Of a DNA stretch of 38,819 bases, positions 6,854-36,896 are shown one piece after another; positions within the stretch are counted from its first letter, which is position 1, and each line of letters opens with the position of its first letter. The stretch spans positions 1-38,819 of the forward strand of contig QILF01000129.1 in NCBI GenBank assembly GCA_003233235.1. The letters are read 5' to 3'. The notes beneath the pieces are model-generated. The model was not told the origin of the DNA and did no database searches. It saw only the letters and a program-made list of their open reading frames with translations. This DNA is from Zetaproteobacteria bacterium. GTDB taxonomy: Bacteria > Pseudomonadota > Zetaproteobacteria > Mariprofundales > Mariprofundaceae. The position numbers and the translations under genes were made by a program.

Positions 6854-6942
6854 GAGCCACTTGCAAAAGTCGTGAGCGGCGATTTTCTTCCCCACTTCGA
6901 GTGCGATTGCAACTCATCCACCCAGACTTTTGCAAGTGGCTC
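6854..6942. mobile_element. MITE copy 2 (GAGCCACTTGCAAAAGTC family), 89 bp
   Basis: The shortest copy: the 18-bp termini are perfect inverted repeats and TAAG flanks both ends (6850-6853, 6943-6946). The central module present in the other copies is missing. It lies between tRNA-Arg and hipB. Confidence 0.9.
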
Positions 6943-12441: not shown

Positions 12442-12456
12442 ATATTGAGCCCCTAT

Positions 12457-12641
12457 GAACCACTTGCAAAAGTCGTGAGCAGCGATTTACTTCCCCACTC
12501 CGGCGCGATTTCACTTGGATTTCAAGTTGGAATTTCGGCAAATGGAACCACCATTCACCTCATTCCAACTCAGAATCGCACTCGAAAACCGCACTCGAAG
12601 CGGGATTGCAACTCATCCACCCAGACTTTTGCAAGCGGCTC
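12457..12641. mobile_element. MITE copy 3 (GAGCCACTTGCAAAAGTC family), 185 bp
   Basis: The left end is slightly decayed (GAACCACTTGCAAAAGTC); the right end matches GACTTTTGCAAGCGGCTC. CTAT and TTAT flank it, a 3-of-4 match to a target duplication. It contains the ATGGAACCACCATTCACCTC module plus an extra internal GATTTCACTTGGATTTCAAG stretch. It separates the divergent alkC and algC genes. Confidence 0.85.
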
Positions 12642-18903: not shown

Positions 18904-20829
18904 CTACTCGGTATCCTCGCACCACTGCTTCCATATGGCCTGATAAGCTTGCTCAAGTTCACCGAGCAGCGGTTCCGCATCGCACAACACTTCACAGCAT
19001 CCTTGATGTGCTTTTAGCTTGCGATCATGGAGTTTTTCGACATCGGCAACCAACTCATCACAAATACGCACATATTCAACCCCATCTCCGGCAATCAAAT
19101 CCTCAAGACCGACACCCGTTAGCAGGCTGGCCCCAACTCGGGACGCATGCACATCCCCAATCCGGGTAACAACCGGAACACCCATAAACAAGGCCTCACA
19201 GCTTGTGGTCGTACCGTTGTAAGGGTAAGTATCCAAAGCAACATCAACGCTTCGATAAAGCCTAAAATGATCTTCGAGGGACAATTGCCATGAGATAAGT
19301 TCCAATCGGTTTTTTCCAATGCCAAATTTTTTGAATCTGGAAATCAAATGTTTGCGAGTCGAGGCATCCACCATAGCCACATTCTTGATAATCAGGGCTG
19401 AATCAGGAACTGATTTGAGAACATTCGCCCACATTTCTACGGTTTCATCCGTTATTTTTGCCAATAAATTAAAACTGCCAAATATTATTCCTTTTCGCTT
19501 ATCTTGTTCAATCGCAGGCTCATCAAATACACGCATAGCAACTGCTGGCGGTGCATAGCGGAGAAAACCGCTCGATAGGCGTATCAATTTTTCACCGTGC
19601 CAAGAATCAGCGCCATCTTGATCGACTACTGGATAGGATTTTGAGCCAGAATCCGGATCAGCAACCAGATCGGTAACCCGCCAAGCGATTGCGCTCAGGC
19701 CTGTGCTATTGGGATAACCAATATGACTGACCTGCACTGGAGCCGGATGCATAGCAAACATTCGCAGTCTGTTTTTCGATGTATGGCCGGACAGATCAAT
19801 CAATATGTCAATCGCATCAGCACGAATACATTTGGCCAGATCTGCATCACTCATGGCGGCGGTATCCCGCCAGACATCAGCGCTTGCGCGCAACTGTCGC
19901 TGCATATCATCATTCTTCCGTGAATCTGAATAACAACACACGTCAAACAGCTCGCGGTGATGCCCTCGAATCAAAGGCCCGGCAAAGAATGCGACCGAAT
20001 GAAAATGGAAATCCGGAGATACATATCCGATTTTCAGGCGACGCTCCGTTTTGCGTTGATTTTCCCAATGATCGAAGCAAGAAATCGATGAAAGGTAGTG
20101 TTCCTCCCATCCCCGATGGGCTGTCGAAACTTCTTTTGTATCATGTATATCGTAATTCAGGGCGAGTAGAAAATTACTGTATGCCTCGCTGCCATGCTCC
20201 GGCGATGATGAAGCTTGCAGATATGAATCACGGGCTGCAGCGGTTTCTCCCATCATCATTTGCAAATGCCCAAGCTCATTCCATGCCTCAAAATACGATG
20301 GTCTTAAACGAACCACCTTACGCAAAGACTGAAGCGCAGGCTTCCAGTCACCTTTTATTTTTAACAACATCGCCCGATTGAAATGGGCATCGGCAAGATC
20401 CGGCTGTAAACGAACTGCTTTATTCACATGCTGCAAAGATGCGGCAAATAATGCCTGTGCCTTGATCATGGCATCGGAAATGCCTTGTTCCGATGTGTCC
20501 ATGAGTTGTTCTGCACCCTTCTTAAAAGCAACAGCCAGATTTGCGTGCCACGCGGCGCATCTGGGCTGCTGATCAACAGCTTCTTGTAGCATTTTAACGG
20601 CTGTTTCAGTTGACCCGGCCTGCAAATACACCAATCCTAACAAATGTTTGGATGGTCCATGACATGGCTGATGCGACAAGATGGCCTCGCATGCATGTTT
20701 AGCTTCCTGCAATTCGCCGCGTTGAAAGCTCTGCGTCGCCAATGAAAGCAATTGCGCTATTAAATCATTGAGTTTGGGCATGCTAAAACATCGCAAGAAA
20801 CAGGCCAAATTCAACGCCTTTCCAGACAC
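18904..20829 (-). CDS. TPR-containing O-GlcNAc transferase-like (SPINDLY/OGT, GT41) protein
   Basis: The N-terminal about 230 residues are tetratricopeptide repeats (LVYLQAGSTETAVKMLQEAV, ADAHFNRAMLLKIKGDWKPALQSLRKVVRLRPSY). The C-terminal about 370 are the GT41 catalytic region: IGYVSPDFHFHSVAFF (about 267), ILIDLSGHTSKNRLRMFAMHPAPVQVSHIGYPNSTG, FGSFNLLAKIT, and VDVALDTYPYNGTTTSCEALFMGVPVVT. The donor is normally UDP-GlcNAc and the acceptor protein Ser/Thr. Next to fliC it is a candidate flagellin glycosyltransferase (inference). A GTG at 20829 with AGAAGG 6 bases ahead is the best start; an ATG at 20781 would also fit but lacks a ribosome site. Confidence 0.85.
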   Translation of the reverse strand: MSGKALNLACFLRCFSMPKLNDLIAQLLSLATQSFQRGELQEAKHACEAILSHQPCHGPSKHLLGLVYLQAGSTETAVKMLQEAVDQQPRCAAWHANLAVAFKKGAEQLMDTSEQGISDAMIKAQALFAASLQHVNKAVRLQPDLADAHFNRAMLLKIKGDWKPALQSLRKVVRLRPSYFEAWNELGHLQMMMGETAAARDSYLQASSSPEHGSEAYSNFLLALNYDIHDTKEVSTAHRGWEEHYLSSISCFDHWENQRKTERRLKIGYVSPDFHFHSVAFFAGPLIRGHHRELFDVCCYSDSRKNDDMQRQLRASADVWRDTAAMSDADLAKCIRADAIDILIDLSGHTSKNRLRMFAMHPAPVQVSHIGYPNSTGLSAIAWRVTDLVADPDSGSKSYPVVDQDGADSWHGEKLIRLSSGFLRYAPPAVAMRVFDEPAIEQDKRKGIIFGSFNLLAKITDETVEMWANVLKSVPDSALIIKNVAMVDASTRKHLISRFKKFGIGKNRLELISWQLSLEDHFRLYRSVDVALDTYPYNGTTTSCEALFMGVPVVTRIGDVHASRVGASLLTGVGLEDLIAGDGVEYVRICDELVADVEKLHDRKLKAHQGCCEVLCDAEPLLGELEQAYQAIWKQWCEDTE

Positions 20830-23706: not shown

Positions 23707-23856
23707 AGCCTAATCTTGGCGAAGCCATGCCGCATGAACAAGGTCCATAAGTGCAAACAGCCTGTATAAACAGCATAATGCCTTGCTCGTTTACTTAGAA
23801 AATATCAAAATTTGCGCTGGGTATTGCACTTGATGTGTATCAGGCATAAAACACCT

Positions 23857-24030
23857 GAGCCACTTGCAAAAGTCTGGGTGGATGAGTTGCAATCCCACTT
23901 CGAGTGCGATTTTGAGTTGGAATGAGGTGAATGGTGGTTCCATTTGGTGGTTCCATTTGCCAAAATTACAACTCAAAATCGCGCCGCAGTGGGGACGAAA
24001 ATCGCCGCTCACGACTTTTGCAAGTGGCTC
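23857..24030. mobile_element. MITE copy 4 (GAGCCACTTGCAAAAGTC family), 174 bp, inverted
   Basis: Both 18-bp ends are intact and ACCT flanks both sides exactly (23853-23856, 24031-24034). Relative to copies 1-3 the interior runs in the opposite direction, with GAGGTGAATGGTGGTTCCAT and a local duplication of TGGTTCCATTTG. It ends 35 bases before the hydrolase start. Confidence 0.9.
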
Positions 24031-24065
24031 ACCTATACTTAAGATAACGATTGGAGGCTATCGAA

Positions 24066-24884
24066 GTGCACTATCAATACGTGAATGTCGCCGGACATCG
24101 CATCGCCTACCTTCGCCAAGGCAAAGGGCCGGTTCTTCTGCTGATTCACGGCATCACCACTTATTCGCGTATCTGGAAAAACATCATTCCCGCACTGATG
24201 GAAAAATTCGATGTGATTACCGTCGATTTACCCGGTTGCGGTAACTCCGATAAACCGCTGGATATATCTTATGCACTGAAAGCACATGCCAATTATCTGA
24301 CAACGATGATGCACAAACTCGGAATTTCCCGCTATCATATCATCGGCCATGATTTGGGCGGTGGTATCGGTCAGATTATGGCCGTACAACAAACAAACAG
24401 TATCCTCAGCCTCAGCCTGATTAATTCCGTGGCATTCAATTTCTGGCCGGTACAACCGATCACCGCCATGCGCATTCCGGTTATCCGCCAACTGCTAATG
24501 TCGATTTGCGACCTTGGTGCATTTAAATTACTGCTTGGCAGGGGAATGCTGCATCGGGAAAATATCACGGCAGCGTTAATTGATGACTTCTGGCAACCCT
24601 TGGCGAACAGTGAGGGGAAGAAAGCCTTTTTGCATTTTGCTAAATGTCTCGATAATCATGATTTGATGCGCATTTCCGGGCAACTGAAGCGGCTTCGCAT
24701 CCCTGTGCTGATTGTTCGCGGCGATGCAGACCCGTTTTTATCCGCTAAAATTGTGGAAAAACTGCATGCACATATTCCGCACAGTCGTTTGCAACGCATT
24801 GCTACAGGCAGCCATTATATTCAGGAGGATGAACCTGCATGGCTAAGCAAAACCCTACTCAAATTCCTAGGTGAAGCGGTATGA
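24066..24884 (+). CDS. Alpha/beta hydrolase with an Asp at the nucleophile position
   Basis: This 272-residue protein has the oxyanion region LLIHGITTYSRIW (about 25-37), LDLPG-like VDLPGCGNSDKP, the nucleophile elbow IIGHDLGGGIGQ (about 95-106), the acid VRGDADPF (about 219-226) and the catalytic His in GSHYIQEDEP (about 251-260). Asp replaces Ser at the elbow, as in epoxide hydrolases and haloalkane dehalogenases, so C-X or epoxide chemistry is likelier than esterase. GTG at 24066 is chosen because GGAGG lies 8 bases ahead; a TTG at 24051 overlaps that site. It overlaps the LOV kinase gene by 4 bases (ATGA), so the two are probably co-translated. Confidence 0.8.
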   Translation: MHYQYVNVAGHRIAYLRQGKGPVLLLIHGITTYSRIWKNIIPALMEKFDVITVDLPGCGNSDKPLDISYALKAHANYLTTMMHKLGISRYHIIGHDLGGGIGQIMAVQQTNSILSLSLINSVAFNFWPVQPITAMRIPVIRQLLMSICDLGAFKLLLGRGMLHRENITAALIDDFWQPLANSEGKKAFLHFAKCLDNHDLMRISGQLKRLRIPVLIVRGDADPFLSAKIVEKLHAHIPHSRLQRIATGSHYIQEDEPAWLSKTLLKFLGEAV

Positions 24885-27409
24885 ATGATTCAACCAGCAA
24901 AACTATTTCCGAACTTGAAGCAAGAATCCGGCATCTGGAAGCGGAAAACGACCAACTGGCCGAGCGCGCCGAAGACACCCTGTTGCTTGGTCAGATTTCC
25001 GAAACCATTTCCCGCCAGACGAGTGTCAAACGCATTCTGAGCAGTGGTCTTGAGTGCATCTCGTTGCTCAAAGATATTCCCGTTTGTATGGTCATCCATT
25101 GCCAGCAGGAAAAGAATAAAGTGACCGCCGCATATCTTTCCTATACTTCGGAAGACATCACCGGCCTGGACGTCATTATTCCTGCGGATATTAAAAATAT
25201 GCTAGTTTCAACGGGAGCTATCATCCGTTTGGCAGAACAATCTGCAATTGATATGAAAGATCAGCTACCGGAACAATATACAGTCGGGCAAACACTGTGG
25301 ATACATGATCAAAGCATCGCCTGCCCCGGCAATATCTATGCCTTTATCTTTTCACCCGAAGAAGCAACAGAACAAGCGATATTGATGCAACCGATGTTGC
25401 AACGTGTCACGGAAATCATGACGCATGCTATGGACAGGCTGATTATGGTCGAATCTTTGCAGGAATTAAATGCAGGACTTGACCGCAAGGTCGAGAAACG
25501 AACTGCCGCATTGAAAAAAAGCAAACAACATTTCCGTTCACTCATTGATCAGGCTCCGGATGCTATTTTTCTCATTGATGACCATGGCAACATCATCAAG
25601 GCAAACCGAACGGCCAGCCTTAAACTCGGTTACAGCCGTAAAGAATTGCTGAAAATGAAAGTGCCGGACATTGACATAAATTTCTCCATAGATGGCGTGG
25701 AACAACTTAATAAAAACACCAGAGAAGGTTGCTCTACCACCTTCGAAGGTTTGCACAAAAAGAAAGACGGTGTTGTTTTTCCGGTTGAGGTTCACCTCTC
25801 TCGAATCAGCTATGGCAAGGAAAGCTGTCTGCTGGCCCTAGCCCGCGATATTAGCGAACGTAAACGCGCCGAAACAACGATTCGTATGCATCAGAGAGCG
25901 ATGGATGCAGCCGCCAACGGCGTGATTATCACCGATGCCCGCAGGCCGGATATGCCAGTTATTTACTGCAATAAAGCTGCACAAACCATCTCCGGCTATT
26001 CAAATGAAGAAATACTCGGAAAAAATTGCCGCTTTCTACAAGGTGATGGAACCGACCAGCCGGAAATCCGGCGCATGCGCCGCGCCATTGCGAAACAACA
26101 GGAATGCACAGTCACGCTGCGCAACATCCGGAAAAATGGCGATATATTCTGGAATGAAGTGAGCTTGTCGCCGGTATTCGATGAAACAGGCCGACTGATT
26201 GAATATATCGGGATTCAATGCGATGTCACTTATGAACGCGATCTTGAGGAGCAACTGGCTCAATCGCAAAAGATGGAAGCAGTCGGCACGCTGGTCGGAG
26301 GTATCGCACATGATTTCAATAATATGCTGGCCGGTATGATGGGTAATCTTTATCTGATGCAAAAAGACGTCTCGGCTTCGGAAATACTGAAATCCAGAGC
26401 CGAAACAATTCAAGAACTTTGTGAGCGTGCGGCAACGATGATTTCCCAACTTCTCACCTTTGCCCGTAAAGGTCCTGTTCGCATGCAGAGTATTAATATA
26501 AAAGAGTTTCTTGAAGAGAACATCCCTCTTTCAAAGATGAGTATTCCGGAAAACATATGTTTTGAGTACGTGTTGGAAAGTCCTGAAAATATACATATTC
26601 TCGGTGACAGGACCCAGCTGCAACAAGTTCTGCTAAACCTGCTGGTGAATGCACGCGATGCCGTTGCCGATAAACCTAAGCCGACAATACGTGTCGAGCT
26701 GAAACAGATTGAACAAAACACTGCTCTGAATGCAATATATGACGAGCTTGGTGAAGGTCCATGGATAGAGCTATCTGTAGCGGATAATGGTTGTGGGATT
26801 CCAGAGGTAATAAAAGACCGGGTTTTCGATCCCTTTTATACAACCAAGGAAGTCGGCAAAGGAACCGGTCTCGGGCTAAGCATGGTCTACGGCGCGATTC
26901 AATCACATCAGGGTACGATTCGTATTGAAAGTGAAAAGGACAAAGGAACATGCTTCTATATCTACCTGCCGATACACGGAGGAAGAGAGAAAATATCCGA
27001 AAATACTCTAGGCGACCTGTTGCACGGGTACGGGGAAACAATTTTACTGGTCGATGATGATGAAGTTGTGCGCACCTCGGTTAAAGAGTTACTGGAACAT
27101 CTGGGTTACAGGGTCGAACTGGCATGCAATGGACGGCAGGCGGTTAAACATAAGGCGTTGAAAGATGTTAATCTGGTCATTATGGATGTTGTGATGCCCG
27201 AATTGGGTGGCGTCGATGCCGCCGTGCAATTGCGTCAACGCTATCCGCATTTGCCTGTCCTCTTTGCCACCAGCTACGACCGCAACCAAGTGCTGCAACA
27301 TCAGGAGGCATTGACGAACAGTGCAACACTTTGCAAACCTTTCCGTTTAAAAAGCTTCAGTGGAACGTTACGTAATCTTCTCGAAGGGCATGAAGGAAAC
27401 TGTCGCTAG
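24881..27409 (+). CDS. LOV-domain hybrid histidine kinase (putative blue-light sensor)
   Basis: The 842-residue soluble protein begins with a coiled coil (about 8-35) and a GAF-like sensory region (about 35-190), followed by a coiled linker, a PAS domain (about 215-330), and a LOV domain (about 335-450). LOV carries GKNCRFLQG with photoactive Cys383, plus RNIRKNGDIFWNEVSLSPV and FIGIQ-like YIGIQCDVT. A HisKA region with His477 in GGIAHDFNNML and an ATPase with NARDAV, DNGCGIP and GTGLGLSMVYG follow. The C-terminal receiver has LLVDDDE and phosphoacceptor Asp769 in VIMDVVMPE. Blue light should form an FMN-Cys adduct and change kinase activity (family knowledge). Output partner is not encoded nearby. 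Confidence 0.9.
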   Translation: MNDSTSKTISELEARIRHLEAENDQLAERAEDTLLLGQISETISRQTSVKRILSSGLECISLLKDIPVCMVIHCQQEKNKVTAAYLSYTSEDITGLDVIIPADIKNMLVSTGAIIRLAEQSAIDMKDQLPEQYTVGQTLWIHDQSIACPGNIYAFIFSPEEATEQAILMQPMLQRVTEIMTHAMDRLIMVESLQELNAGLDRKVEKRTAALKKSKQHFRSLIDQAPDAIFLIDDHGNIIKANRTASLKLGYSRKELLKMKVPDIDINFSIDGVEQLNKNTREGCSTTFEGLHKKKDGVVFPVEVHLSRISYGKESCLLALARDISERKRAETTIRMHQRAMDAAANGVIITDARRPDMPVIYCNKAAQTISGYSNEEILGKNCRFLQGDGTDQPEIRRMRRAIAKQQECTVTLRNIRKNGDIFWNEVSLSPVFDETGRLIEYIGIQCDVTYERDLEEQLAQSQKMEAVGTLVGGIAHDFNNMLAGMMGNLYLMQKDVSASEILKSRAETIQELCERAATMISQLLTFARKGPVRMQSINIKEFLEENIPLSKMSIPENICFEYVLESPENIHILGDRTQLQQVLLNLLVNARDAVADKPKPTIRVELKQIEQNTALNAIYDELGEGPWIELSVADNGCGIPEVIKDRVFDPFYTTKEVGKGTGLGLSMVYGAIQSHQGTIRIESEKDKGTCFYIYLPIHGGREKISENTLGDLLHGYGETILLVDDDEVVRTSVKELLEHLGYRVELACNGRQAVKHKALKDVNLVIMDVVMPELGGVDAAVQLRQRYPHLPVLFATSYDRNQVLQHQEALTNSATLCKPFRLKSFSGTLRNLLEGHEGNCR

Positions 27410-27761: not shown

Positions 27762-27792
27762 AAAAGAGGCGTCATTTGATGCCTCTTTTTTT
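27762..27792 (+). terminator. Rho-independent terminator of rpmB
   Basis: AAAAGAGGC and GCCTCTTTT pair around GTCATTTGAT (partly self-pairing) and end in a run of eight T. It sits 36 bases after the stop codon. Confidence 0.9.
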
Positions 27793-33452: not shown

Positions 33453-35546
33453 TCAGAAACCGCTTTCGCGAATCACGACGGCAATCACCTGATTGAAAAA
33501 CCGCGCCAGTATGCTTTTACGCGAACCTTCGATATATACCTTGCCGCGTATACTCTTTTGCACTGGCGTATCTTGTAAGGGGTGCAGTATCACCCGATAC
33601 ACCGCCTGCTGTGGGATAAGTGAACCGCCTTTGCCTTGAAGAACAGGAATATCTCCGCCGAAAATCGACGCCAACGGCGGATCAAGCAACACTTTAGCAC
33701 TGGCTCGATCAATGTCTTCCACGCGCATATCCATCGCCTTCAAAGCTGGATCGTCCGGATAAAAACGCGCCTTGGCACCTGCCTCGAATCGCCCCAAATC
33801 ACTCTCGGAAACATAAGCACGTACTGTGGCTTTTTTACTATCCACAAGGCTCAAAAGCTTCTCACCACCCTGCACGTAATCACCCTGACTGGCATCCAGA
33901 TTAACCATCACAACTTCGCCGGAAAACGGGGCTTTCATCTTCAACCGGGCAATGCGCTCTTTCAACGAACCCAATTGGGCGACATCACCAATAATCTGTT
34001 GACGAAGAATACGCCCCTGCGCAGCCACATCGCCGGAAACACCTTGTGCCGATGTCTGCCACTGCAACAAGTCCATCTGCCGCTGCAAACCATCCAACTG
34101 GTGGTCCAGTTCGTCCGATTGCAGCTCTATAAGCAATTCACCCTTCTGCACATGCTGGCCGTTGACGACTGGAAACGTCAACACATGCGCATTTTCCGGT
34201 GCATAAAGTGCGATCCGGTGCTCTGCATCCAAAACCCCGGATAACGGCACACGCGTCTGCCATGGAACTAGCAGAAGCATCAAAATCAACCCGAAAACAG
34301 CCAGCGTTCGGTAGCCGCTACGATTGTTCGCCTTATCCCGACGCTTCCACCACTCCTTCATCTCCAAAAAAATCGGCAACACAAGAAACCAACCCACCTC
34401 AACAACCATCAGAAAGATACCTAGAACCTTGAAGAAAAAGAAATAAACCAGCGCGGAAATACCCAGAAACAGGAAAAAACGATAAACCCACGTGATCCAA
34501 GCATAAATCAGCAGTTGATTTCGTAACTTGTCATCCATTTCTTCAGGAACAGGTTCGCCGGGAGCAAACAGCACTTCACGCATCCGCCAGCGGGCCAGCG
34601 CAAAAGCCCGCTGTTGCAAATTATCGACCTCCATCCAATCGGAAAAGAGATAATACCCGTCCCAGCGCATGAAAGGGTTCATATTAATCATCATCGTTAT
34701 CACCCACGTGGTGGTAGCGAGCAGAAAAGTGACGCTCTTCAGCGGCCCTTCGGGCAAAAACGACCACAATAGCGTGGCCATCACAGCCAGCGATAATTCC
34801 GCTAAAAATCCGGCGGCATTAATCCACATACGTTTATGATTGTCGGTCAATTTCCATGCGTCACTGGTATCGGTATACATCACCGGCATCATCACCAGCA
34901 GCCCCATGCCCATGGTCGGCACGCGCACCCCGAAATGACAAGCCGTATAGGCATGTCCGAATTCATGAATAACTTTAGTAAACATCATCGTTAAACCATA
35001 AAAAAGCAGTCCCTGTAACGAGAAAAAATAGCTGAAAGTATGTAGAAAAGACTCCCATTGACGTGAAACCAGATAAACTCCGACAACACCGGAACATAAC
35101 AAAAACCAAATATAGGAACGGGTAAAAAAGAAGCTTACAAGATGCACGGTACGTTTGAGAAATGCATCCGGATGAAACAGCGGAATGCGCAGGAACAGAT
35201 AGTTGTGCAGCAGCCATGTCGCCCAGTGCCCGCGCGCCGCGTTTGCCTGACTGGCAAGGATGCCAAGCCCTTCCGCACCGTGTACCTGCACCAGATTATT
35301 GCCCTGCAAAAACATCGCAACATCAATAACATTTGAGGCTTCCACATTCAGCGTTGTGGCCTCGTTGACCTGTTCGGCAATCTTTTCCGGATCACCCAAA
35401 CGCCAGCGACGCAGCATTTCGAATTGCGGCCAACCAAAGCGGAAATAACGGTTGCGTAACGGATCATACAGCGAGTAGGTCGGCATACCGTTACGCGCAC
35501 GCGGCCCGTCGCATAAGGCCAATTCTTCCCTGAGCGGCGGCAGCAA
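33453..35546 (-). CDS. PqqD-like / M50 metalloprotease / HlyD fusion protein
   Basis: Three parts are visible in 697 residues. Residues about 20-90 (YSLYDPLRNRYFRFGWPQFEML) resemble a PqqD/RRE-like winged-helix peptide-binding domain. Residues about 140-440 are a polytopic M50 site-2-protease region with zinc motif HEFGHAYTACHFG and distal Asp in NMNPFMRWDGYYL. Residues about 440-690 form a HlyD-type adaptor (APENAHVLTFPVVNGQHVQKGELLIEL, coiled helices, MKAPFSGEVVMV). The start is TTG at 35546 with an AGGTC ahead, 6 bases after the HlyD gene. Such fusions accompany HlyD adaptors in diverse bacteria and their substrate is unknown. It may cleave or conduct a peptide or protein cargo across the inner membrane (inference). 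Confidence 0.85.
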   Translation of the reverse strand: MLPPLREELALCDGPRARNGMPTYSLYDPLRNRYFRFGWPQFEMLRRWRLGDPEKIAEQVNEATTLNVEASNVIDVAMFLQGNNLVQVHGAEGLGILASQANAARGHWATWLLHNYLFLRIPLFHPDAFLKRTVHLVSFFFTRSYIWFLLCSGVVGVYLVSRQWESFLHTFSYFFSLQGLLFYGLTMMFTKVIHEFGHAYTACHFGVRVPTMGMGLLVMMPVMYTDTSDAWKLTDNHKRMWINAAGFLAELSLAVMATLLWSFLPEGPLKSVTFLLATTTWVITMMINMNPFMRWDGYYLFSDWMEVDNLQQRAFALARWRMREVLFAPGEPVPEEMDDKLRNQLLIYAWITWVYRFFLFLGISALVYFFFFKVLGIFLMVVEVGWFLVLPIFLEMKEWWKRRDKANNRSGYRTLAVFGLILMLLLVPWQTRVPLSGVLDAEHRIALYAPENAHVLTFPVVNGQHVQKGELLIELQSDELDHQLDGLQRQMDLLQWQTSAQGVSGDVAAQGRILRQQIIGDVAQLGSLKERIARLKMKAPFSGEVVMVNLDASQGDYVQGGEKLLSLVDSKKATVRAYVSESDLGRFEAGAKARFYPDDPALKAMDMRVEDIDRASAKVLLDPPLASIFGGDIPVLQGKGGSLIPQQAVYRVILHPLQDTPVQKSIRGKVYIEGSRKSILARFFNQVIAVVIRESGF

Positions 35547-35552
35547 AGTGAC

Positions 35553-36896
35553 CTACCAGCCCAATTTTTGTCTAGCGACAGCGAGTGGCCTGCGCAGCAA
35601 ATAATAAATGATTGGAACCCGTTTGCCATATATCTTGGCCACGCCGCGCAAGCCGATTCGCGGCGGCTTCTGACCGGGCAGGAACTGCGCGCGCATTTCA
35701 TATGCAAGAACACCACCTGAATCTTGCTGCGCCTGATAAGCGGCATAACTCAATATCGCCGGAATCGAATGTGTAGGTTCCATGTTCAGAAACAACGAAA
35801 CCTTGGCATTTTCAGGGAAAATCAAGCTGTTGCCAACCGGCAACATCATACGTATCTCAGCCTTGGTCGGATCGGCAATCACCACCAGTCGTTCACCAAT
35901 TCGTACCGGCATGCCAATAAGATCGTCACTGTTGGTGAACAGTGCCAAACCGTCGCGCGGCGCTCTGATTTCCAGTTTATCCATTTGTTTCTTGAGAAAA
36001 TTCACGTCCTCACGTTTCTGCATCGCCTTGGCACGCAACGTAACCAGACTCGCTTTGCTGCGTGCATCGCGGAACGATTGTTGAATCAATTGCTGGTATT
36101 TGGCCTCCATCATGGCCATTTCCTTGTTGGCTATCTGTAATTTGGTGCGAATCTCATCGTCGTCCAGAACCAGCAGAACATCGCCTTTCTGAACCGGTTG
36201 ATTCGGCTCGATATTCACTTTATCAACAATCCCGGCCAGCGGCGAACGCACCACCTGTGCATCCAGCGGTCGTACCTCAGCAGGAGCAAGAACGGATTGC
36301 CGTATCGGTGCAAAAAGCGCACCCAATACCAGAATCATAATGCCCCAGAAGCGCCAGCGATTGGATATCCAACGCGATTTTATCCGCCGCCAACTCCAAT
36401 TGGATTCCTTCGCCAGATGGGCAAACCATGCGTGCGCATAAACATAACGCAGGTGATTGAGCAACGTCGTTTCCGCCTGCGCCCAAGCCCGATCACGCGC
36501 CAGAAGTATACCACCCAGACGTTTCTTACCGGCATTCAAGGGAACCCAGATGACATGCCGTGGCAACCACTCCTGCCAGCCTTCAGCCAATTCCTGAGGC
36601 ACATCCCCAAGGCTGAGTTCGCGCGCTTCTTTGCCTCCTGCCGCGTATAAATATGAGGTTAAACGCAACATCCACTGCATAAATGGCGCATCACGCTGCA
36701 ATACAGGCAGGCCTGAAACTGCAGCGATTCGATTTTTACCGTGTGCTTCAAATAGCACCGCCTGCCGGTATTCAATCAGATTATGGGTTTCATTGACGAT
36801 ACAGAAACCCAGGCCTTCTGCATTGATGGTTTCCCAAGCCTGCTGTTCAAGCGACAGCAGCGCGGCAACACCCTGATATTGGGACTGTTCAGCCAT
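35553..36896 (-). CDS. HlyD-family membrane adaptor with N-terminal GAF-like region
   Basis: The 447-residue protein has a cytoplasmic region of about 180 residues that looks like a GAF-type sensor (VIWVPLNAGKKRLGGILLARD), one transmembrane helix (RFWGIMILVLGALFAPI, about 186-202) and a periplasmic HlyD part. There ADVRPLDAQVVRSPLAGIVDKV-like and MDKLEIRAPRDGLALF are the two lipoyl half-motifs flanking a helical hairpin. It starts 2 bases after the preceding adaptor gene and ends 6 bases before the M50-HlyD gene, so the three form an operon. The cytoplasmic domain could couple a signal to the complex (inference). Confidence 0.8.
   Translation of the reverse strand: MAEQSQYQGVAALLSLEQQAWETINAEGLGFCIVNETHNLIEYRQAVLFEAHGKNRIAAVSGLPVLQRDAPFMQWMLRLTSYLYAAGGKEARELSLGDVPQELAEGWQEWLPRHVIWVPLNAGKKRLGGILLARDRAWAQAETTLLNHLRYVYAHAWFAHLAKESNWSWRRIKSRWISNRWRFWGIMILVLGALFAPIRQSVLAPAEVRPLDAQVVRSPLAGIVDKVNIEPNQPVQKGDVLLVLDDDEIRTKLQIANKEMAMMEAKYQQLIQQSFRDARSKASLVTLRAKAMQKREDVNFLKKQMDKLEIRAPRDGLALFTNSDDLIGMPVRIGERLVVIADPTKAEIRMMLPVGNSLIFPENAKVSLFLNMEPTHSIPAILSYAAYQAQQDSGGVLAYEMRAQFLPGQKPPRIGLRGVAKIYGKRVPIIYYLLRRPLAVARQKLGW

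Follow-up and report, generated by a model that had tools for sequence, protein, structure and literature searches.

An Asp-nucleophile hydrolase conserved beside sensor kinases with a GAF-like N-terminal domain, and a zetaproteobacterial member that includes a blue-light LOV domain

In 2011, Nadezhdin, Brody and Price reported RsbQ-type hydrolases whose genes lie upstream of those for PAS-kinases, PAS-phosphatases and PAS-cyclases (PMC3183031). These systems depend on the catalytic triad of the hydrolase, and the hydrolase makes contact with the PAS domain, which is the most N-terminal sensor domain of output proteins that are otherwise variable (PMC3183031). Two models were offered, in which the hydrolase either delivers its product to the sensor domain or is itself the receptor, and the ligand of RsbQ was still unknown at the time of that paper (PMC3183031). 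If the pair that we describe here arose independently, with its different nucleophile chemistry and different sensor fold, hydrolase-sensor pairing would be a general design. Among papers under an open licence, we found nothing on a hydrolase/GAF-kinase pair or on LOV domains in Zetaproteobacteria beyond the 2011 RsbQ study.

The window, by which we mean the whole stretch of 38,819 nucleotides that was analysed (contig QILF01000129.1), comes from a 2.0-Mb draft genome of a zetaproteobacterium. On its plus strand, an alpha/beta hydrolase of 272 residues (24066-24884, GTG start, TGA end) is followed by a hybrid sensor histidine kinase of 842 residues with an ATG start (24881-27409). The kinase ATG begins inside the hydrolase stop codon, and the shared ATGA bears out the 4-base overlap, and with it the translational coupling, that a first-pass annotation had read at this junction. 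The GTG at 24066 was taken as the hydrolase start because a GGAGG at 24054-24058, judged from its sequence to be the probable ribosome binding site on the plus strand, fits it; the longest possible hydrolase would start at the TTG at 24051. Between the kinase and a convergent ridA lies a possible terminator (27762-27789, plus strand), a 12-pair stem followed by a T run, which is a pattern match only, the count of such sites being equal to the shuffled expectation.

From its N terminus, the kinase begins with a coiled coil, a GAF-fold domain and a second helix (residues 1-212, 24881-25516), followed by a PAS domain recognized by Pfam (residues 213-332, 25517-25876). Next come a LOV domain, which Pfam reports as a second PAS (residues 340-450, 25898-26230), and a HisKA dimerisation and phosphoacceptor domain (residues 469-530, 26285-26470) with His477 at 26309-26311. 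A HATPase_c domain (residues 575-698, 26603-26974) and a receiver domain (residues 721-824, 27041-27352), whose phosphoacceptor Asp769 is at 27185-27187, complete the protein; all of these lie on the plus strand.

This locus resembles RsbQ/RsbP-PAS in several respects. The hydrolase gene lies immediately upstream, the constant partner is the most N-terminal domain of the signalling protein, a coiled coil sits beside that domain, and the outputs are variable and include hybrid kinases with receivers. However, PAS comes first in the RsbP type, whereas the window kinase has a predicted GAF fold first and PAS second. The nucleophile of RsbQ is a serine. In the hydrolase family described here it is Asp in 16 of 17 members and deleted in the other one, but not Ser. 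The closest solved structures to the window hydrolase are also different, being haloalkane dehalogenases, and the window kinase has a LOV domain added. Based on the fold of the N-terminal domain and the nucleophile, we rejected membership of RsbQ-PAS proper. The earlier annotation had called the partnership of hydrolase and kinase unexpected; it is unusual, but RsbQ-type hydrolases upstream of PAS proteins (PMC3183031) are a precedent. The gene pair is real, conserved and under-described, and the hydrolase-sensor arrangement itself is known from RsbQ-PAS.

The predicted catalytic triad of the window hydrolase consists of Asp96 (24351-24353), His250 (24813-24815) and Asp222 (24729-24731), all encoded on the plus strand, with the nucleophile elbow GHDLGG. 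An Asp-His-Asp triad is complete in 16 of the 17 family members, and a cap-domain motif, WPVQPI (residues 127-132, 24444-24461, plus strand), is invariant in all 17; the AlphaFold model of the cap is poor over residues 129-168 (pLDDT below 50). Haloalkane dehalogenases (AncHLD2/5, DhaA, PRK03592) are the best sequence matches and share the fold, the Asp nucleophile and the catalytic His, and D96, H250 and D222 agree with the dehalogenase triad. However, where those enzymes have HGNP and HDW the window hydrolase has HGIT and HDL, leaving it without the halide-binding Asn and Trp, and its match to PRK03592 is 113 bits against a cut-off of 241. Across all 17 family members the corresponding residues are Leu or Val at position 97 (one member being gapped there) and Ile or Val at position 30. 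With neither the halide-stabilising Trp after the nucleophile nor the Asn of HGN, identity as a haloalkane dehalogenase was rejected.

Soluble epoxide hydrolases and fluoroacetate dehalogenases likewise have the Asp nucleophile and the fold in common with this protein. We rejected the former identity since HGIT stands in place of the HGxP oxyanion motif and the cap tyrosine pair is absent, the two Tyr-rich cap columns being Phe124 and Leu162 in the window hydrolase. Fluoroacetate dehalogenase was rejected for want of an Arg beside the nucleophile (HDRGG), the family having HDLG or HDVG wherever the elbow is present. The assignment to an epoxide hydrolase or dehalogenase type in the first-pass annotation thus holds for the fold and the Asp nucleophile but fails at the halide-binding residues, HGxP and the cap tyrosines. 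Because the triad is intact but the residues that define the dehalogenases, epoxide hydrolases and fluoroacetate dehalogenases are absent, the sequence fits the Asp-nucleophile group, as a plausibly catalytic member with no particular reaction assigned to it.

Within the LOV region of the kinase, Cys383, the predicted adduct-forming cysteine (26027-26029), lies in GKNCRFLQG, in agreement with the GxNCRFLQ motif, and is accompanied by the expected flavin-contacting residues Arg384, Gln387, Asn415, Asn425 and Gln446, at what we take to be the canonical spacing of phototropin and YtvA. The region aligns with solved LOV proteins including YtvA, plant phototropin and Pseudomonas LOVs, with a best E of 5e-47 to LOV-kinase chimeras. 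Judged by its residues, the kinase has a canonical blue-light LOV domain with the residue set complete. The LOV hybrid kinase with Cys383 proposed earlier was therefore recovered in full, together with HisKA, HATPase_c and receiver domains, as were the PAS domain (by Pfam) and the GAF-like N-terminus, the latter by its AlphaFold2 fold and without a Pfam match.

One could read the LOV kinase alone as the functional unit and the hydrolase as an accidental neighbour on a shared transcript. Its C-terminal half does resemble the LOV hybrid histidine kinases of NCBIfam PRK13557 and related proteins, with which it shares the LOV-HisKA-HATPase-receiver order and the complete LOV residues, and it matches PRK13557 with 427.9 bits over 500 residues (340-839), below the curated cut-off of 631. 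Unlike that type, however, the window kinase has a long N-terminal GAF-like and PAS extension and a coupled hydrolase gene, and the pair recurs across class and phylum borders where the kinases are without LOV. Because the pair is conserved without LOV, we consider an accidental neighbour very unlikely. Among the 17 kinases with this N-terminal domain (15 paired with a hydrolase and two unpaired), the window kinase alone has the LOV cysteine, which was looked for in the other 16 and found in none. A genuine LOV domain with 46% identity occurs in another pseudomonadote (G047), a genome in which no high-scoring member of this hydrolase family was found, and the nearest domain within the window's own family, at 44% identity (G008), is without the cysteine. 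We conclude that the blue-light domain is a lineage-specific decoration and not the core of the hydrolase-kinase module.

On these counts we rejected the hydrolase as partner of the LOV domain, which the first reading of the locus implied. The physical arrangement in the window is all that speaks for light as the ancestral input with the hydrolase as a light-dependent effector of LOV, and the absence of LOV from 16 of 16 other kinases with this N-terminal domain contradicts it, so that we give this reading almost no credence. What is constant is the N-terminal domain: the coiled coil and GAF-like region is common to all hydrolase-paired kinases, and the remaining domains vary, with one or more PAS domains, an Hpt domain in one genome (G048) and LOV in the window only. 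Given that the LOV cysteine is absent from the 16 related kinases, the conserved partner of the hydrolase is the N-terminal GAF-like domain of the kinase.

Residues 1-212 of the kinase matched no Pfam family at E values up to 10, with only chance matches to coiled coils. The AlphaFold2 model of this region (pLDDT 86) has the order helix-helix-beta-beta-helix-beta-beta-beta-helix, which is a GAF-type fold flanked by two long helices, and the top Foldseek matches are GAF-containing regions of phytochromes (best E 3e-7). The predicted fold and the flanking signalling helices are like those of GAF domains in phytochromes and other sensors (TM by query 0.45-0.65), but identity to them is just 10-14%, with no match to Pfam GAF. 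The conserved residues of the domain (L19, E22, N23, L26, E58, S61, L63, K64, P67, N197, L200 and R207) are mostly helical. Since conservation is concentrated in helices, we read it as pointing to a signalling helix or a protein contact more than to a ligand pocket.

A scan for the hydrolase over GTDB genomes returned seven relatives at 49-60% identity and two that were much weaker. Close relatives occur in Desulfobulbaceae (L043, L050) and in deltaproteobacterial (L044), Anaerolineae (L045) and zetaproteobacterial (L047) MAGs, and in all five of these loci the next gene on the same strand encodes a large sensor protein with the same N-terminal coiled coil and domain. When 78 genomes of the class were searched by profile, 10 contained the hydrolase (416-494 bits) and 12 the N-terminal domain, and each of the 10 hydrolase genes directly precedes, in the same orientation, a gene for a kinase with that domain. 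Adjacency in relatives had been set beforehand as a check on the pair, and the pair survives it: a sample of 399 Pseudomonadota held 11 strong hydrolases and 13 strong N-terminal domains, with adjacency in 11/11 of the hydrolase-positive genomes. The next-best hydrolases in these 399 genomes reach at most 215 bits, and the loci read show no kinase of this type beside them. In the phylum of the deltaproteobacterial seeds (samples of 395 and 277 genomes) and in that of the Anaerolineae seed (251 genomes sampled), only the seed genome of each sample exceeds 400 bits. A search of plasmids found only relatives at 32-37% identity.

Weaker hydrolase matches, which reach no more than 216 bits in Desulfobacterota and other Pseudomonadota and 224-232 bits in Chloroflexota, were rejected as members of the pair. 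The ones that were inspected either stand alone or are fused to a thioesterase-like domain, and none of these adjoins a kinase with the N-terminal domain. Chloroflexota open frames (L119-L123), at about 230 bits to the hydrolase family profile, join a putative PaaI/hotdog-type thioesterase domain, identified by reading the sequence, through a linker rich in proline to an alpha/beta hydrolase with an Asp nucleophile.

Overall, the hydrolase was found directly upstream of the sensor protein in 15 pairs, at intergenic distances of -17 to +63 bases and mostly overlapping. Flanking genes differ by lineage (rlmE, recG, lpxB and others), and the hydrolase stays beside the kinase throughout. Distances between hydrolases correlate with those between N-terminal domains (Mantel r 0.89, n=15, permutation p 1e-4), although this figure and those for co-occurrence are inflated by kinship of the genomes. 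The two trees largely agree; the exceptions are the window and one Desulfobulbaceae locus (L050), whose positions have weak support. Distance correlation and tree agreement are as expected of co-inherited partners. Mean identity is 56% among the hydrolases and 31% among their N-terminal partners, the hydrolase being the better conserved of the two.

Hydrolase and kinase are nevertheless separable, as two zetaproteobacteria (G089, G091) keep the kinase after rlmE without a hydrolase, and two deltaproteobacterial MAGs (L046, and L048, the latter titled Geopsychrobacter) have hydrolases that fall within the paired ones in the tree and no kinase of this type that could be found. Such single genes, together with the intact triad and the dehalogenase/epoxide-hydrolase fold, would suit a metabolic or detoxification enzyme whose substrate is sensed by the kinase, which then controls expression or degradation, the two proteins not forming one joint sensor. 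However, the loci read show no genes for transport or catabolism accompanying the pair, the flanks change by lineage while the hydrolase stays put in all 15 pairs, and such close co-variation with a single sensor domain is not expected of a catabolic enzyme; we regard this explanation as unlikely, though deserving of weight. In one genome (G062; L097, 2106-2912) the hydrolase has lost five residues in frame, and with them the nucleophile elbow, the rest of the protein and the kinase being intact. The assembly has 8% contamination, and the loss may reflect decay, a fault in the assembly or a version of the hydrolase that serves only as a receptor.

Pair conservation, the distance correlation, the RsbQ-PAS precedent and the complete LOV residues lead us to favour, with moderate confidence, a two-protein sensing module in which the hydrolase and the co-translated kinase handle a chemical input, joined here by blue light. 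In our proposal, a small electrophilic molecule would be bound by the hydrolase and probably hydrolysed by way of a covalent intermediate on Asp96, and the result, whether product or occupancy, would be passed to the GAF-like domain at the N terminus of the kinase. From this domain the signal could travel along the coiled coils on either side of it to reach the histidine kinase and the receiver, and with LOV placed between sensor and kinase, the light input and the chemical input would feed a single phosphorelay. We infer the contact between hydrolase and N-terminal domain, the route of the ligand and the convergence of signals, and the two inputs may act without interaction in the kinase. By analogy with RsbQ, two models would remain for the window pair: the sensor domain may receive a product made by the hydrolase, or the hydrolase may itself act as the receptor. 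We suggest more tentatively that this is a second, separately evolved module, in which an Asp-nucleophile hydrolase serves as the ligand-processing receptor for a GAF-type domain, with LOV in series, so that one kinase would combine both cues. A natural member with LOV could be of practical value, as a light-switchable kinase would give a controllable baseline for gauging the contribution of the hydrolase. An Asp nucleophile can also trap covalent intermediates in His mutants, which offers a practical route to the ligand.

Other features of the window deserve mention. On the minus strand, a TPR protein with an OGT-like glycosyltransferase family 41 domain (18904-20829) is encoded beside flagellin and FliD genes and is possibly involved in flagellin glycosylation. 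Also on the minus strand, a metalloprotease of M50 type in fusion with HlyD-like segments (33453-36896) lies beside a second HlyD-like protein and gives a weak match to a model for daptide-maturation proteases (133 bits against a cut-off of 300). A dispersed, near-palindromic repeat about 90-190 bases long occurs at 2860-2985, 6854-6942, 12456-12641 and 23856-24031, the last copy ending about 35 bases before the hydrolase start. The repeat has the ends TGAGCCACTTGCAAAAGTC and GACTTTTGCAAGTGGCTCA, a predicted hairpin of -102 kcal/mol and a variable number of an internal GGTGGTTCCATTT-like unit. Of 179 candidates in the 2-Mb genome, 40 were scored as copies, with 85-93% identity to the one at 23856-24031, and the element is MITE- or REP-like.
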